This document shows positions 313-8,149 of a stretch of DNA of 26,312 nucleotides, one piece after another (positions within the stretch are counted from its first letter, which is position 1; each line of letters starts with the position of its first letter). Below the pieces are notes generated by a model. That model was not told the origin of the DNA, made no database searches, and saw nothing but the letters and a program-made list of their open reading frames with translations. This DNA is from a virus. Both the position numbers and the translations under genes were made by a program. The stretch spans positions 1 to 26,312 of the IMG/VR virus record IMGVR_UViG_3300008110_000539; one strand, given 5' to 3'.

Positions 313-2322
313 ATGTTTCAGAAATTTCTTGCACAAGGCCTATGCGTCATTCCGTTGCGTAAGGGAGTGCCGCAAGTGGAATGGTCGCGTTATTATGACG
401 CGATGCCAAGCGAAGATGAAGCGCGCGGATGGGATGAGGCAGGGCATAAAGAATACGCGCTTTTGTGCGGTAAGCAATCAGGTGTTATTGCGCTTGATAT
501 AGACACAGACGACACCGCTTTATTTTATGCGCTTGCTGGCGAAACGCCACTGCGTAAAAAGGGAAGCAAGGGTTTTACCGCTTTTTATCGCTATAATGGC
601 GAAAGGTCGCAAACATGGGGCGGGGTGGTTGAGCTGCTTAGTGATAAGCGTTTAACTACAATCCCGCCAAGCCCGCACCGCAAAACCGGGATCCCGTATG
701 TGTGGATGGATGGCGATAGTTTTGATGACTTGCCAAGCATTAACCCAGATTTTTTCACTTTTATAAATGCCAAATACCCGAAGCAAGCGCAGCGTGCATG
801 GGTTCCGCCAGTTGACTATGACAATCACGTTGACTTGCAAGAAGCAGCAGAAATGCTGGATTATATAAGCAGCGATTGCCCCCGCGACGAATGGGTGCAG
901 GTGGGCATGGCGCTGCGCGATGAATTTGGCGACGCCGCTTGCGCTTTATGGCATAACTGGAGCCAGAAGGCAGGCAAGCGATACAATCACAACGACGCGC
1001 AGGCCGCGTGGCGTTCATTCGGAGGCCACGGGGTTACAATCGGCACGCTGGTTTATTTGGCTAAGCAGGGAGGCTGGCTTCCCAAGCAGGAAGTGGAAAC
1101 TGGGTTCTCTGTGGATATTAGCTATATTTTCGCGAAAAAACAACCCAAGCGCATTGAGCCGTTAAAAGTTGGCGGCCTTGTAGGTGAAATCGCCGATTGG
1201 ATAACTGAAACCGCCATAAGGCCGCAGCCTGTTTTGTCGCTTGCTGCCGCTCTTGCATTTATGGGTATGCTTAAAGGCCACCGCGTGCGAAGCGTTACAA
1301 ATTTACGCACGAATATCCTGATTATGTCGCTTGCCCCTACTTCGGGCGGGAAAGAACACCCGCAGCAATCTATTGACCGCTTGGCGGAGGCGTGCGGGTT
1401 AGGCAAGCATCTCATGGGCAGACCTACCAGCGGCACTGGCTTGCTTACTGGCGTACATAAATGCGGCGGCGTGGCGTTATTATCCATTGACGAGCTTGGC
1501 CGCTTCATGGGCAATATCAGCCTTAAAAATGCTGGAGGTTTTCAGCGTGAAATCACAGACTACATGGTGGAGCTTTTCAGCGCAGCTAACCGCACTTTTC
1601 GTGGCAGGCAATATGCGAACGAGAAACAAAACCCGCAAGTGATTTTGCAGCAGCCGCATTTTTGTTGCCTTGGTTCAACCGTTCCAGAGCGCCTGCGCGC
1701 CTCGCTGAATGGCACTGAAATCATCGACGGGTTTCTTAACCGCTGGCTTGTTTTCAGCGCGCCTGACCGCCCCGAAAAACAAAAGGGAGTTAAATTCGCG
1801 CCACCCCCGCAACAGTTGGTAGATAAAATCACCTACTGGATGGCGGAAAACCCAACCGTTTATGACAATTATGGAGTGCCAGAGCCGCGAGAAATCAGAT
1901 TTACCCCAGAGGCACTTGATGTGCTTTCCGCTTTTGAAAAGGAAGTTGAGGCAAAAATTGATGAGCCGATGGGTGATTTATATGCTAGAAACTGGGAACT
2001 GGCGCAGAAACTGGCTATGATTATTGCCGATTCTGACGTGGGATTTCCCGAAATGGATGCGGCGGTAAAAATTGTTAAACAATCGAGCTTGCAATTAGCA
2101 GAATTTGCTGGTAGGATCACCGATACGCAACATGAGAATGATGTTGTGTATCTTTTTGAGATAATCAAAAAGTGGCCAAACATATCGCGGAATCAGCTGA
2201 CACAGCGCACCCGGAAATTAACCCAGCGCCAGCGGTCAGAGATTCTAACCCAGCTAATTGAGTCTGGCGATGTGGTGGCAAGCGGTGAAGGTAAGAAGGT
2301 CACCTTTGCTGCAAGCGTGTAG
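313..2322 (+). CDS. Primase-polymerase/helicase fusion with C-terminal winged helix
   Basis: A phage replication protein of 669 aa. Residues about 1-155 form a bifunctional primase-polymerase domain: DIDTDD at 62-67 supplies the metal-binding acidic motif, KGFTAFY lies near 86-92, and the VVELLSDKRLTTIPPS segment near 105-120 is typical of phage members. Residues about 172-254 match the PriCT-2 domain (DEWVQVGMALRDEFGD, WRSFGGHGVTIGTLVYLA). Residues about 285-480 are a P-loop helicase-like ATPase with Walker A APTSGGKE (341-348) and Walker B VALLSIDE, its DE at 393-394. The last ~60 residues form a winged helix. It should prime and unwind the phage origin in the cytoplasm. GGGGTG at 301-306 is the likely ribosome-binding site. 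The usual histidine of the primase motif is replaced by Thr in KGFTAFY. It is the only replication enzyme in the window. Confidence 0.88.
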   Translation: MFQKFLAQGLCVIPLRKGVPQVEWSRYYDAMPSEDEARGWDEAGHKEYALLCGKQSGVIALDIDTDDTALFYALAGETPLRKKGSKGFTAFYRYNGERSQTWGGVVELLSDKRLTTIPPSPHRKTGIPYVWMDGDSFDDLPSINPDFFTFINAKYPKQAQRAWVPPVDYDNHVDLQEAAEMLDYISSDCPRDEWVQVGMALRDEFGDAACALWHNWSQKAGKRYNHNDAQAAWRSFGGHGVTIGTLVYLAKQGGWLPKQEVETGFSVDISYIFAKKQPKRIEPLKVGGLVGEIADWITETAIRPQPVLSLAAALAFMGMLKGHRVRSVTNLRTNILIMSLAPTSGGKEHPQQSIDRLAEACGLGKHLMGRPTSGTGLLTGVHKCGGVALLSIDELGRFMGNISLKNAGGFQREITDYMVELFSAANRTFRGRQYANEKQNPQVILQQPHFCCLGSTVPERLRASLNGTEIIDGFLNRWLVFSAPDRPEKQKGVKFAPPPQQLVDKITYWMAENPTVYDNYGVPEPREIRFTPEALDVLSAFEKEVEAKIDEPMGDLYARNWELAQKLAMIIADSDVGFPEMDAAVKIVKQSSLQLAEFAGRITDTQHENDVVYLFEIIKKWPNISRNQLTQRTRKLTQRQRSEILTQLIESGDVVASGEGKKVTFAASV

Positions 2323-2329
2323 AAATGTG

Positions 2330-2358
2330 TTGATTTGTTTTACACGTTAATTTATAAT
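2330..2358 (+). promoter_or_regulatory. Promoter for the winged-helix gene
   Basis: TTGATT (2330-2335), a 17-bp spacer and a perfect TATAAT (2353-2358). It begins 8 nt after the primase stop and lies 30 bp upstream of the next start, giving that gene its own transcript. Confidence 0.7.
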
Positions 2359-2387
2359 GCTTCTACTAACAATTTTTAGGAGCATTT

Positions 2388-2654
2388 ATGAAAATTACTG
2401 GTTTTGTTTTTGAAGATGGATCAATTTTAGAAGTAAATTGTTTTTCTGAAATTAAGGTAAAGCCTAAAAAAGATAATACTGATTATGTGTTAAACGTCAT
2501 AAAAAAGTATCCTGAAATCAGGAAAAATTTATTGACGCATATGACTAGAAAAATTACTTTAAGAGAACGCACTCATATTTTAGACAGGCTTATTTCTTCT
2601 GGCATTGTGTCAGAAACTAAAAAAGGAAAAGCCGTTTATTATAAAGCCAGCTGA
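2388..2654 (+). CDS. Stand-alone winged-helix protein, paralogue of the primase C-terminus
   Basis: 88 aa with a strong AGGAG site at 2378-2382. Residues 1-30 are a short domain with no recognised relative. Residues about 36-88 align without gaps to the last ~53 residues of the upstream primase (from EIIKKWPNISRNQ), with 26 of 52 positions identical by hand count. Shared runs include TRK, SG and the GKK/GKA wing. Winged helices bind DNA, so this protein probably recognises the same origin or operator sites as the primase, as an initiator accessory or a competitor. It has its own promoter and is much richer in A/T codons than the primase, which suggests capture from a relative rather than a recent local duplication. 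Confidence 0.75.
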   Translation: MKITGFVFEDGSILEVNCFSEIKVKPKKDNTDYVLNVIKKYPEIRKNLLTHMTRKITLRERTHILDRLISSGIVSETKKGKAVYYKAS

Positions 2655-2907
2655 TTTACAGCTATACCGCTTTGAAAAACATCAAAAAAATCATTTTTGT
2701 GTAGGTGTGTAGCCTATACCCCCCTATTTTTAAGTCTTATATTTAAGGGGTATATACTACACACATACACAAAATAACTATTAATTATTAATTTCAATTA
2801 TTTATACCTGTAAACCAATTATCAATAAAAAAATTATTTTTTTTCTTTACAAAAGTATTTTTTTTATTACATTGTAAGTAGTTTAACTTTGTAAGAGGAT
2901 TTATAAA
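2655..2907. other. AT-rich intergenic region, candidate replication origin or operator region
   Basis: 253 bp with no gene. The left part holds a long inverted repeat (2695-2774). The right part (2771-2907) is almost pure A/T, with TTAATTATTAATTT, an A7 run and two T8 runs, and would melt easily. It lies just downstream of the primase and of the winged-helix protein. A weak -35/-10 (TTTACA at 2846, TACATT at 2868, 16-bp spacer) may serve the next gene. A long inverted repeat plus a melting tract beside a primase fits an origin, but the sequence does not prove it. Confidence 0.4.
2695..2774. repeat. Long inverted repeat, 28-nt arms
   Basis: Arms 2695-2722 and 2747-2774 pair at 25 of 28 positions around a 24-nt A/T-rich centre. 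Each arm contains a repeated element (left: GTGTAG GT GTGTAG; right: its near-mirror CTACACACATACAC) and ends in CCCC/GGGG at the centre. There is no T tract directly after the plus-strand stem, so it is not a normal rightward terminator. Confidence 0.85.
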
Positions 2908-3108
2908 ATGTATTTAATTGAAAAAAATATTCCTATTGTTGATTCAAAAAACAATTTAGCAGCCGTTATGCGCTCTATGGATATTGGAGACTCTGTAGTT
3001 ATTGATAAAAAAGACAGGACTAAGGTTTCTCAATACGCAAAAATAAATGGCGTTAAAATGAAAACTAAAACTATTGATGGCGTATTGCGTATGTGGAGGA
3101 TTGAATAA
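2908..3108 (+). CDS. Small phage protein with EKxIP...GDS...WRI pattern, unknown function
   Basis: 66 aa, start chosen from AGAGGA at 2894-2899, 8 nt before ATG. It opens with MYLIEKNIPIV, has MDIGDSVVI near residue 24 and ends GVLRMWRIE. This sequence of landmarks is shared by a widespread set of small phage proteins (start IEKNIPIP, then MEVGDS, a lysine-rich middle and a VRVWR ending) with no known activity. The K-rich segment (DKKDRTKVSQYAKINGVKMK) and small size suit nucleic-acid binding, but that is a guess. Its codons are strongly A/T-biased like the rest of this region. A T-rich tract follows at once. Confidence 0.6.
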   Translation: MYLIEKNIPIVDSKNNLAAVMRSMDIGDSVVIDKKDRTKVSQYAKINGVKMKTKTIDGVLRMWRIE

Positions 3109-4462: not shown

Positions 4463-5759
4463 GCCGCACAAGTTTCAGGCGCAGCTCCATGAAATAGCCG
4501 CGAGTCACCGTTTTGGGGTGATCGTCGCTCACAGAAGATGGGGTAAAACCTACTGGGCAATCAATACGCTGATTCACGCGGCTCTCACAGCCAAGCGCCA
4601 AGATTCGAGGTATGCTTACATTGCGCCTTTTTACAAGCAGGCAAAGCAAGTGGCATGGGATTATTTTAAGCAATTCACGCACATGTTGCCAAAGGTCAGT
4701 TACAACGAGGCGGAGCTTACGGTCACACTGCATAACGGGGCGAAGATTCGGCTATACGGTGGGGACAATCCTGATAGCTTGCGCGGGATTTATCTCGATG
4801 GCGTGGTGCTGGATGAGGTGGCAGACATGCGGCCTAACGTATGGGGCGAGGTCATACGCCCTACGCTGGCAGACCGTATGGGCTGGGCAATGTTTATCGG
4901 CACGCCCAAGGGTGTGGACATGTTCTACGAAACCTACCAGAAAGCGCTGGTATCAGAGGGCTGGTTCGCTAAAGTGTACAGGGCAGACGAAACTTCGCTG
5001 ATTCCCGATCATGAACTTGAAGCAGCGCGCCGCGAAATGAGCGAACAGCAGTACGCGCAAGAATTTTTATGCTCGTTCACCACATCGACGGGCAATACGC
5101 TGATTCCTATCACGCTGGCAGTTGAGGCAAGCAAGCGCAAGAAGCTAGATATTGAGGTCAAGGGAGGCGTTAAGGTGCTGGGCGTGGATGTGGCACGCTA
5201 TGGTGACGATAGAAGTGTTATATTCCCCGTGATTGGATTGAAGGCATACGAGCCGATAGTCATGCAGGGCGTGGATAACGTGGAGCTTGCGCGCAGGCTG
5301 ATAGCTAAAATTGACGACTTTGAGCCGCATTATGTACGCATCGACGCTGGGCGAGGTGAGGGCGTGATTGATTATCTGAGGTCGCATCGTTACAAATGCA
5401 CTGAGGTCAACTTTGGGGCTGCGCCGCTGAGTGCTTATTACCAGAACGCCAGAGCCGAAATGTGGCATGGCCTCAAAAAATGGCTGGAAGCAGGCGGCTC
5501 TATCCCTGAGATTCCCGAACTTATCAGCGAGCTTGCGTCGCCAGAGTATTCCTTCAGCAGCGCAAACAAAATGGTACTTGAAACAAAGGAAAAAATGAAG
5601 GATAGGGGATTGCGTTCCCCTGACTATGCGGATGCCCTAGCCCTTGCTGTAGGCTATCCACTAAGGGCGAATGATGCAACTAACGTGGTCAAAAACACAT
5701 CCGCTGGCCTTACCACCCGCCGGCACATGGAAAACCCTACAAGAAGGCTGAGGCGATGA
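4419..5759 (+). CDS. terL: Terminase large subunit
   Basis: 446 aa, the motor that cuts concatemers and pumps DNA into the prohead. The ATPase half shows Walker A AHRRWGKT (37-44) and Walker B VVLDE with the catalytic pair D132/E133. A coupling motif GTPKG follows at 161-165. The nuclease half carries the RNase H-like acidic residues: D257 in GVDVARYGDD, D309 in VRIDAGRGEG and D402/D405 in SPDYADAL. All expected catalytic residues are present and the length is normal. The start overlaps the small subunit by 44 nt with no strong ribosome-binding site, so expression is probably by translational coupling. Confidence 0.95.
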   Translation: MQYQQARTIINHPYKPHKFQAQLHEIAASHRFGVIVAHRRWGKTYWAINTLIHAALTAKRQDSRYAYIAPFYKQAKQVAWDYFKQFTHMLPKVSYNEAELTVTLHNGAKIRLYGGDNPDSLRGIYLDGVVLDEVADMRPNVWGEVIRPTLADRMGWAMFIGTPKGVDMFYETYQKALVSEGWFAKVYRADETSLIPDHELEAARREMSEQQYAQEFLCSFTTSTGNTLIPITLAVEASKRKKLDIEVKGGVKVLGVDVARYGDDRSVIFPVIGLKAYEPIVMQGVDNVELARRLIAKIDDFEPHYVRIDAGRGEGVIDYLRSHRYKCTEVNFGAAPLSAYYQNARAEMWHGLKKWLEAGGSIPEIPELISELASPEYSFSSANKMVLETKEKMKDRGLRSPDYADALALAVGYPLRANDATNVVKNTSAGLTTRRHMENPTRRLRR

Positions 5760-6223
5760 TTTCGATTGTGCAAGCAGAAGCAAAGCACTTGCCTGATTTT
5801 ATCAGGCTTGCTGAGCGTTTTTTCTATGAGTCGGACAATTGCCAAGGCGCTACATGGTGCGCGGAGGCTTACAGCCAGATTTTTCTAAGCGCAGTGAAAG
5901 ATTCTACCGTATCAGTGCTTATGGCTTATTGGGGGGAGGATTTGCTAGGTTATTGCATTATAACCTACTTTCAGCATTTTACAAAAGAGCGCATCGGCGA
6001 TATGTATCAACTTTACGTTGCCCCTGAGGCGCGCGGGACAAATGTTGCAAGGCTACTTGCTGAAGCCACTGTAGATCAATTCGACGCATGGGGCTGTGTG
6101 ATTTCCTACAACTATGCAGCGCCGGGGCTTGCCGAAGAGAAAAAAAACCTAGCATTGTTCAGAAATCTGTGGCATAGGTATGGCTACAGGCAGAGCGGCA
6201 TCATTATGGTCAGGGGGGTTTAA
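5756..6223 (+). CDS. GNAT-family N-acetyltransferase in the packaging cluster
   Basis: 155 aa, overlapping the terminase stop by 4 nt (ATGA). The fold pattern of GCN5-related acetyltransferases is clear: N-terminal ISIVQAEAKHLPDFIRLAERF, strands VSVLMAYWG and LLGYCIIT, and motif A at 83-103 (MYQLYVAPEARGTNVARLL), where ARGTNVA fits the Q/RxxGxG/A loop that binds acetyl-CoA. A late GYRQSGIIMVRG strand closes the domain. Substrate unknown. Its tight coupling to terminase and portal suggests a virion-assembly protein or a host factor as target. A second, degenerate GNAT-like gene lies at 16656. Confidence 0.85.
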   Translation: MISIVQAEAKHLPDFIRLAERFFYESDNCQGATWCAEAYSQIFLSAVKDSTVSVLMAYWGEDLLGYCIITYFQHFTKERIGDMYQLYVAPEARGTNVARLLAEATVDQFDAWGCVISYNYAAPGLAEEKKNLALFRNLWHRYGYRQSGIIMVRGV

Positions 6224-6451: not shown

Positions 6452-8149
6452 TTGAGCCAGTACCAGAAAGTTAAAAAAGAATTTGATACGGTAAAAGCCA
6501 AACGCTCGAACTGGAATCAGATGTATCAGATTCTGGGCGAATATGTTCACCAGATGAAGCAGAATTTTCAGGGACAACCTGCAAGCGGTGAATTTCTTAC
6601 CAGTGAAATTTATGATGCGTCTGGGGCTTTTGCTGCAAGCAATTCTGCGTCGGCTTTGCTTGGCATGTTATGGCCGGGAAGCGCAAGCCAAGCGTTTGAG
6701 CTTACGCAGCCGGATGATTTGAATCTGACTACGGAGCTGGCGCAGTTTTACGAGCGCATGAACAATCGCACGCACCGAGCGTTTGATGATCCGAAGGCCA
6801 ATCTGGCCTTAGCACTAGACGAATATATGCTTGACCAGATTGTGTTTGGCACGTCTGGGATTGGTGTTGATGCTGGCACAGACAGCAAGCTGCTTTTCAA
6901 GCCATACGGTGTGCAGGAAATGTACGTTGCCAACGGCGCTAACGGCAAAGTGTCGCGCTTATGGTTGTTGTTTGAGTGGGAAGTTGAGCGCGTTATTCAG
7001 GAATATGGCGAGGAAAGCGTTTCAGAGCAAACCCGCAAACTTTATCAGGATGGAAAGCTACAAGAAAAAGTTTGTATCTTGCATGTTGTGCGCCCGCGCA
7101 AGGAGAAAAAGGCGCTCTATGGCAAGCTGGCTATGCCTTATGAAGGGTTGCATCTGGAATATAAAAATTGCCACTTGCTGCGTGAGGATGGCTACGCGGA
7201 AATGCCTATCCCTGTCGGCAGATTTCGCCGCTTGAATTATGAGGAATACGGGCGCTCACCGGCGATGAATGCTTTGCCTGATATTAAGGAAGCGAATGTG
7301 TTGCGTGAGGCGGTGATTGTTGCAACTGAAAAGCAGCTAGACCCGCCGCTTGGCGTGCTTGATGACGGTATGCTTGGCGGCAATGTGATTGATACTTCTG
7401 CGGCTGCAATCAACGTGTTTAATGCCAGCGCGAATCTAAGCGGCAACAGCCCAGTGTTTCCGCTGGTTACGGTTGGGGATTTGAACACTGCCATTGCGCG
7501 TTTGGAATCGCTGCAAGAAACCATTGCTCAGCATTTCTTTATCGACCGCCTGCTTGATTTTAACAACGAAACGCAAATGACGTTTGGCGAGGCGCAGATT
7601 CGTGACCAGCGCACTAACGCCAGCATGTCTGCGATTTACAACAGGCAAATCAGCGAATTGTTCACGCCTCTAATCGAGCGCGGGGTTGCAAAACTTTTCC
7701 GCATGGGCGAGTATGGCGTGATTCGTGGCAGCGAAGAAGAAGCGGAATTTCTGGTTCAGGGCATTGAGCCTGAGTATATCCCTGACGATCTGGCGGCCTT
7801 GCTTGAACAGGGCAAAGATATTTACAAAATTGTCTATAAAACCAAAGCGGCTAATGCGGCCAAAGCTGAGGAATATATTGCCATTGCTGACATTACGAAT
7901 TTTACGTTGCAGGCCATGCAGGTTGACCCCAGCCTAAAGCACCGGCTTGACCTTCATGAAAGCATCAAACAGCTCGGCGTCATACGCGGCTTGCCTGTTG
8001 GTATTTTACGGCAGGATGATGAAGTAGAGGCGCTGGTAGCGCAGGAGGCCGAACAGATGCAGGCAATACAGGCCTTGCAATCAGGGGAACAACTTGCTAA
8101 TATCGCCGACAAAGCGGCCAGTGCCGAACAACGTACTAACAGGGGTTAA
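6452..8149 (+). CDS. Portal / head-to-tail connector protein
   Basis: 565 aa, similar in size to the T7-type connector (gp8, 536 aa), which forms the dodecameric ring at one head vertex through which DNA enters and leaves. Family-like segments are the N-terminal helix with SNWNQMYQILGEYV, SNSASALLGMLWPG near 62-75, the FGTSGIGVDAG loop near 131-141, GRSPAMNALPDIKEAN near 268-283, and TFGEAQIRDQRTNASMS near 374-390. The start is TTG at 6452. AAAAGG at 6438-6443 is correctly spaced, and the next ATG would remove the first 23 residues. The C-terminus is rich in Q/E/A helix. Confidence 0.93.
   Translation: MSQYQKVKKEFDTVKAKRSNWNQMYQILGEYVHQMKQNFQGQPASGEFLTSEIYDASGAFAASNSASALLGMLWPGSASQAFELTQPDDLNLTTELAQFYERMNNRTHRAFDDPKANLALALDEYMLDQIVFGTSGIGVDAGTDSKLLFKPYGVQEMYVANGANGKVSRLWLLFEWEVERVIQEYGEESVSEQTRKLYQDGKLQEKVCILHVVRPRKEKKALYGKLAMPYEGLHLEYKNCHLLREDGYAEMPIPVGRFRRLNYEEYGRSPAMNALPDIKEANVLREAVIVATEKQLDPPLGVLDDGMLGGNVIDTSAAAINVFNASANLSGNSPVFPLVTVGDLNTAIARLESLQETIAQHFFIDRLLDFNNETQMTFGEAQIRDQRTNASMSAIYNRQISELFTPLIERGVAKLFRMGEYGVIRGSEEEAEFLVQGIEPEYIPDDLAALLEQGKDIYKIVYKTKAANAAKAEEYIAIADITNFTLQAMQVDPSLKHRLDLHESIKQLGVIRGLPVGILRQDDEVEALVAQEAEQMQAIQALQSGEQLANIADKAASAEQRTNRG

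Follow-up and report, generated by a model that had tools for sequence, protein, structure and literature searches.

Genes and repeats at the primase locus

The stretch of DNA analysed here, referred to as the window, comprises a whole virus record, 26,312 bases in length, and is part of a podovirus-like phage that encodes a terminase and a head-tail connector. Positions 313 to 2322 on its plus strand encode a primase of 669 residues, which combines Prim-Pol, PriCT-2 and DUF3987 (putative helicase) domains in a single chain. All three Pfam matches (PF09250, PF08707 and PF13148) exceed the curated cut-offs, and the protein also matches PHROG 3022 (DNA primase) with an E-value of 1e-70. By its domain content it belongs to the AEP primase class (phage Prim-Pol with PriCT-2 and DUF3987), with catalytic activities that are predicted from sequence. 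AEP primases fused to a putative DUF3987 helicase are known from the PrimQH and all3500 families, and C-terminal winged helices are on record for some AEP families (PMC5862659). The NrS-1 polymerase has the same kind of AEP-DUF3987 architecture (PMC7102993). The enzyme encoded in the window is, in this respect, an ordinary AEP/DUF3987 primase (PMC5862659). Its final domain is a predicted winged helix of residues 612-668 (2146 to 2316, plus strand), which was delimited by alignment and has homologous C-termini in related primases. The primase C-terminus found no match among 50,697 annotated phages.

Downstream on the same strand lies a gene for a protein of 88 residues (2388 to 2654). The coordinates of both reading frames had been proposed in a first-pass annotation and were borne out, as was its claim that the two proteins align at their C-termini without gaps, with 26 identities over the last 52 residues once the final V669 of the primase is left off. 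The ungapped match is in fact longer, with 27 identities over 57 positions between residues 612-668 of the primase and residues 32-88 of the small protein (2481 to 2651, plus strand), which amounts to 47% identity in the domain. The BLOSUM62 local score of this match was 130, against a maximum of 58 among 1000 shuffles of the small protein, and when the primase was compared by BLASTP with the other ORFs of the window (up to 400 residues), the small ORF was recovered with an E-value of 4e-13. These figures establish the homology of the two domains, and we refer to the stand-alone copy as the free gene. The fused and free domains are 51% identical at the DNA level and nowhere share an identical run longer than 8 nt. 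They therefore separated long ago, and a duplication created during assembly is ruled out. The first 31 residues of the free protein (2388 to 2480, plus strand) are without a match in the primase and are modelled as a low-confidence hairpin, which agrees with the distinct N-terminus of 30 residues described earlier.

The arguments drawn earlier from the promoter and the codons of the free gene proved to be weak. A predicted promoter (TTGATT-17-TATAAT at 2330 to 2358, plus strand), identified by consensus match, agrees with the consensus at 10 of 12 positions, and a ribosome-binding site, AGGAG (2378 to 2382, plus strand), is located just 5' of the ATG. However, 8 promoter-like sites were found in the scan where 6.4 are expected by chance, so a strong promoter of the gene's own is plausible rather than established. 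The codons are indeed rich in A and T (GC3 of 0.23, compared to 0.52 in the primase gene). Since a neighbouring ORF of 66 codons has a similarly low GC3 (0.27) and the whole stretch from 2.3 to 3.1 kb is about 25-30% GC, this is a regional property and no mark of foreign origin.

Iterons with the sequence CGTGTA are associated with the free gene and with the end of the primase gene. One overlaps the primase stop codon (2316 to 2321, plus strand) and another, read as TACACG on the plus strand, lies inside the predicted promoter (2341 to 2346, minus strand). Both are found at the same places in the related loci L002 (8006 and 8032) and L003 (4093 and 4107). The free gene is followed by an AT-rich, origin-like element (2655 to 2820, unstranded) that is common to L002 and L003 by alignment. 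The iteron scan located in it the pair GTGTAGgtGTGTA (2699 to 2711, plus strand; GTGTA at 2699 and 2707) and the inverted pair CTACAC...TACAC (2757 to 2770, minus strand; TACAC at 2758 and 2766). The alignment also revealed a core, GGGGTATATACTACA, that the window has in common with L002 and L003. In L002, L003 and L024, the primase stop codon is immediately followed by AT-rich DNA (28-31% GC), where CGTGTA occurs in direct and inverted orientation, in 7, 5 and 4 copies, respectively. The counts of L002 and L003 were reached in none of 300 shuffles; in L024 the best 6-mer is ATACAC, and 4 of 300 shuffles attained its count. The iterons of the window outside the predicted promoter are degenerate, reading GTGTAG instead of CGTGTA, and no single 6-mer is enriched as strongly as in L002.

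Downstream of the free gene, the window matches the DNA found after the primase stop in L002, and none of 500 shuffles matched as well. Because of this correspondence, and because iterons are present on both sides of it, the free gene is placed inside the element. The corresponding iteron pairs are about 40 nt apart in L002, and in the window the free gene lies between them. A tandem duplication that included the start of the element was also considered and found no support, as 98% of shuffles did as well as the comparison of the post-primase with the post-free sequence of the window. Two repeats had been put forward earlier as possible binding sites of both domains. The one at 2695-2774 turned out to be the right-hand part of the iteron-bearing element that in relatives follows the primase gene, whereas the one at 109-149 is a different palindrome that contains no iteron. 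The position and make-up of the element suggest that it is a replication origin. It has the repeats and the AT-rich DNA of an iteron origin beside an initiator gene, more weakly in the window, and its origin activity is putative.

The palindrome at 109-149 (TTGACAcatGGCACA...TGTGCCTGTCAA) overlaps promoter-like sites on both strands and adjoins a small ribbon-helix-helix-like gene (169-309); in L002 and L003, counterparts of this gene precede the primase. The palindrome has the appearance of an operator that would serve divergent replication operons. Within it, at 115-117, the sequence of the locus L001 departs from that of the window. The 66-residue ORF mentioned above (2908-3108) has no Pfam or PHROG match, and similar-looking small ORFs, ending in ...R[IL]WR/K, follow the origin-like element in L002, L024 and L104. 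Further downstream, a GNAT-type acetyltransferase gene (5756-6223; Pfam PF00583) is located between the terminase and portal genes.

A possible brake on initiation, and the nature of the free protein

For phages whose initiator is a Prim-Pol protein, the limits set on replication, its timing and the location of the origins are, to our knowledge, poorly understood. The pair described here singles out a concrete origin candidate immediately 3' of the primase gene, a concrete DNA motif and a small protein accessible to simple assays. Arguing from the sequences and by analogy with known initiators, we tentatively favour the view that the free protein is an origin-binding competitor, detached as a domain from the primase, which acts as an autoregulated brake or timer on initiation. 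The protein of 88 residues is a detached and diverged copy of the C-terminal winged-helix domain of the primase. The fused domain would recognise the CGTGTA/TACACG iterons of a putative origin adjoining the 3' end of the primase gene, and the free copy would occupy these sites while bringing neither primase nor helicase along, thereby competing with or capping the assembly of the initiator. The predicted promoter of the free gene is built on an iteron, and initiator or free protein bound there would shut off synthesis of the free protein, so that a small negative-feedback loop would slow or time initiation. The identity of the origin, the binding of iterons by either domain, the inhibition by the free protein and the autoregulation are what we infer.

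Iterons overlap the predicted promoters of the free gene in the window (TACACG in the spacer) and of a second such gene in the phage contig L115, described below (an iteron-like inverted repeat at the -35 element); any gene located in an element of this kind can be expected to have iterons near its promoter. The same overlap would suit a transcriptional regulator, for which the iterons would be operators of its own gene or of genes downstream and which would not itself act on replication. Solved structures of the same fold are mostly repressors (BlaI, MarR and HxlR), and the 66-residue ORF at 2908-3108, which has counterparts in L002, L024 and L104, is located just downstream. However, a generic fold carries little information on function, the sequence links the free protein to the initiator, and the sites are also found in relatives without the gene, where they will have another use, most likely as an origin. 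We consider such a regulator unlikely, although it is not separated from the brake by sequence analysis.

In an AlphaFold2 model, residues 31-88 of the free protein form a winged helix with pLDDT values above 90, while the N-terminal hairpin is poorly predicted. The model has the three helices and the two-strand wing that define this fold, as a prediction and not a solved structure. It superimposes on BlaI and HxlR with Z-scores of about 10 (1.5-1.7 Å over 61 residues), and hundreds of other winged helices have a similar fold. This could mean that the fused and free domains are just two members of a very common superfamily, with no special relation to each other. However, the window's free copy groups in a domain tree with the primases of the window, L002, L003, L024 and L103 (support 98/99), phage primases (annotated as DnaG/twinkle, DUF3987, Prim-Pol or PriCT-2) were among its best matches in a search of viral structures, and its only confirmed sequence relatives are primase C-termini. 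The tree, the viral structures and the lack of other confirmed sequence relatives rule out two random members of the superfamily, and the fused and free copies share one specific domain, as had originally been proposed. Two pattern scans of bacterial and archaeal genomes, which reach only sequences sharing a short conserved peptide, returned no relative; sequence searches of the PDB gave weak matches only, and NrS-1 polymerase gave no significant sequence match. The turn before the recognition helix is conserved (TRK.T, 4 of 5 positions in each pair), and the net charge of the domain is +8 in the free and +5 in the fused copy. The conserved turn and the positive charge fit a predicted binding to DNA.

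We also considered whether the free gene could be a functionless relic, namely the 3' end of an older primase gene that was left beside the origin after a new primase had arrived. This would account for the finding that the sequence after its stop codon is the one that follows the primase stop in relatives, as expected of an original 3' end, and primase fragments are known to be duplicated in related phages (a 76%-identical copy of a primase N-terminus in L213). Yet the gene has retained an open frame with a start, an AGGAG and a new N-terminus, and a similar arrangement occurs in L115. In addition, codon positions 1 and 2 are better conserved than position 3: the identities between free and fused copies at positions 1, 2 and 3 are 0.53, 0.67 and 0.35 in the window, and 0.48, 0.58 and 0.22 in L115. 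When neutral drift to the same DNA identity was simulated, with all change placed on the free branch so that the figures are rough, an open frame together with the observed protein identity was obtained in 0 of 20,000 runs for the window and L115 alike, and an open frame alone was kept in 2.8% (window) and 1.7% (L115) of the runs. At the level of sequence, this pattern shows that the coding frame of the free gene is under constraint. A dead relic is unlikely, and is the least probable of the alternatives weighed here.

Occurrence of the free copy in other phages

L001 represents the same phage, with 6 differences in 2327 nt (99.7% identity over 2.3 kb), and it ends 5 nt after the primase stop codon. 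Its last bases (6740-6744, corresponding to 2323-2327 of the window) differ from the window, for which strain variation at the junction with the free gene and noise at the contig end are both possible. The primases of L002, L003 and L024 are 83%, 77% and 59% identical to that of the window, respectively. No free copy is found in L002, for which a whole contig of 38 kb was covered, nor in L003 or L024, which means that the free gene is dispensable in this family.

For a wider survey, the primase of each locus was searched against the remaining ORFs of that locus. The sample comprised 116 distinct primase C-termini followed by 300 nt or more of sequence, 48 of which have a recognisable version of the domain. 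A free copy was found by a domain profile of the survey loci in 2 of the 116, the window and L115, where the flanks covered a few kilobases and copies farther away would have been missed. The profile otherwise matched fused primases only. When the L115 form of the domain was targeted in another scan, only fused copies came to light besides L115 itself. As to whether other Prim-Pol phages carry the pair, it recurs in L115, but it is rare and missing even in near relatives. The pair is not a general feature of Prim-Pol phages.

Three further candidates were rejected. A short ORF in L016 that matched a first, narrower profile (8e-4) was judged a chance hit, as the ORF is unrelated and only part of the domain was matched. 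In L091 the ORF is an antisense overlap with the primase gene itself. In L213 the copied part is the N-terminus of the primase and not the winged-helix domain. This last ORF (75 residues, L213:817-1044) is 76% identical over its first ~60 residues to the N-terminus of the primase of the same locus, from which it is separated by a gene for a C5 cytosine methylase, and it stems from a recent duplication of part of the primase gene.

The L115 contig has a length of 60 kb, and its primase is 30% identical to that of the window. Its free gene (6893-7189) encodes 98 residues, matches the C-terminus of its own primase with an E-value of 1e-8, and lies beyond an AT-rich stretch beside iterons; the repeats of this locus are TTCACGCTTCA. 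An iteron-like inverted copy (6820-6840) overlaps the predicted -35 element of the gene. The protein is modelled as a long N-terminal helix followed by a winged helix. Its only matches among the 50,697 phage records were weak ones (E-values of 0.02-0.1) to the primase C-termini of three Vibrio phages. Sequence comparison shows that a free copy recurs in a second phage.

The N-termini of the two free proteins are unrelated. In the domain tree, which is based on about 60 columns and has long branches, the L115 free copy groups weakly with L115, L104, L138 and others, and a single ancestral free gene for the window and L115 was rejected (p-AU of 0.022 for the forced grouping, with the caveat of long branches). 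The helix-turn-helix of each free protein is closer to that of its own primase (14 of 25 identities in the window, 12 of 25 in L115) than to that of the other free protein (6 of 25). For these three reasons the domain was probably detached twice independently, within the limits of ~60 columns and long branches. Since the domain probably became detached on two independent occasions, and each free copy lies at an origin-like element, an initiator form reduced to this domain seems to be of use rather than accidental.

This distribution bears on two other roles. As a helper of the primase, the free protein would be a loading or origin-remodelling subunit that binds the iterons first and then recruits or orients the primase ring. 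It has the same domain and the same location as the primase, and its extra N-terminus, which differs from the primase, could contact the latter; the L115 version is a long helix able to pair. On the other hand, the free gene is dispensed with in near relatives that have the same primase and iterons, and the unrelated N-termini in the window and L115 argue against a conserved contact with the primase. We regard a helper as quite improbable. Slightly less probable still is a weapon or shield that blocks the origin of co-infecting phages or satellites with common iterons. A patchy presence among close relatives and a fast divergence, here from the fused copy, are what conflict genes typically show, and the CGTGTA iteron is common to L002 and L003, but the gene is located inside its own putative origin and the phage's own primase uses the same kind of iteron, so that self-inhibition would have to be avoided. 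Moreover, the sites of the window are no different in kind. We retain the brake on initiation as our tentative reading. It is conceivable, though rather doubtful, that Prim-Pol phages repeatedly evolve free copies of their origin-binding domain, each with a new N-terminus and an iteron promoter within or next to the origin, as a dedicated brake on replication or a weapon aimed at related replicons.

Comparison with known initiator pairs

In the open-licence literature, we found no description of a detached C-terminal domain of a Prim-Pol or DUF3987 protein, nor of a convergent control strategy by free domains for this class of initiator. For the related PrimQH and all3500 AEP primases (PMC5862659) and for NrS-1 polymerase (PMC7102993), a detached paired domain is not mentioned. 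Initiator helicases of the SCCmec Cch2/SaPI Rep type bind iterons in a putative origin that adjoins their own gene, and they resemble the present case as initiator helicases with iterons beside their own coding sequence; they differ in that we found no detached domain paired with the initiator described for them (PMC7581432).

Shortened forms of initiators offer the closest parallels. The pi30.5 protein of R6K, a shorter form of the initiator pi35, inhibits replication, and in pIGRK both RepR and RepR' bind the origin and repress their own promoter, while the short form inhibits replication (PMC6854812). As in these plasmids, the short form in the window keeps the predicted DNA-binding part of the initiator, as judged from the 27 of 57 identities and the tree. 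In R6K and pIGRK, the short form is translated from a second start inside the initiator gene and has the same sequence as the long form along its entire length. The frame at 2388-2654, in contrast, has its own start and forms a gene apart, which has diverged to 47% identity in the domain. It also has a new N-terminus and belongs to a phage with a Prim-Pol primase, and inhibition is here what we infer by analogy. The A/A* proteins of phiX174 and the pII/pX proteins of filamentous phages likewise comprise a phage initiator and a shorter in-frame form with another role (PMC6854812). These are rolling-circle initiators that share one gene and frame and have no primase winged helix.

The Cnr protein of P4 acts together with the alpha protein and is not known as a copy of the DNA-binding domain of alpha, and by this description it is set apart from the free protein. 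Alpha and Cnr are nevertheless similar to the present pair in that a primase-helicase initiator with origin recognition is accompanied by a small, separate copy-number protein (PMC8628076). Ordinary AEP/DUF3987 primases and shortened, antagonistic forms of initiators are therefore already known. What is new is a short form that is a separate and diverged gene in or beside an origin-like element, in this class of initiator, and that seems to have arisen twice.
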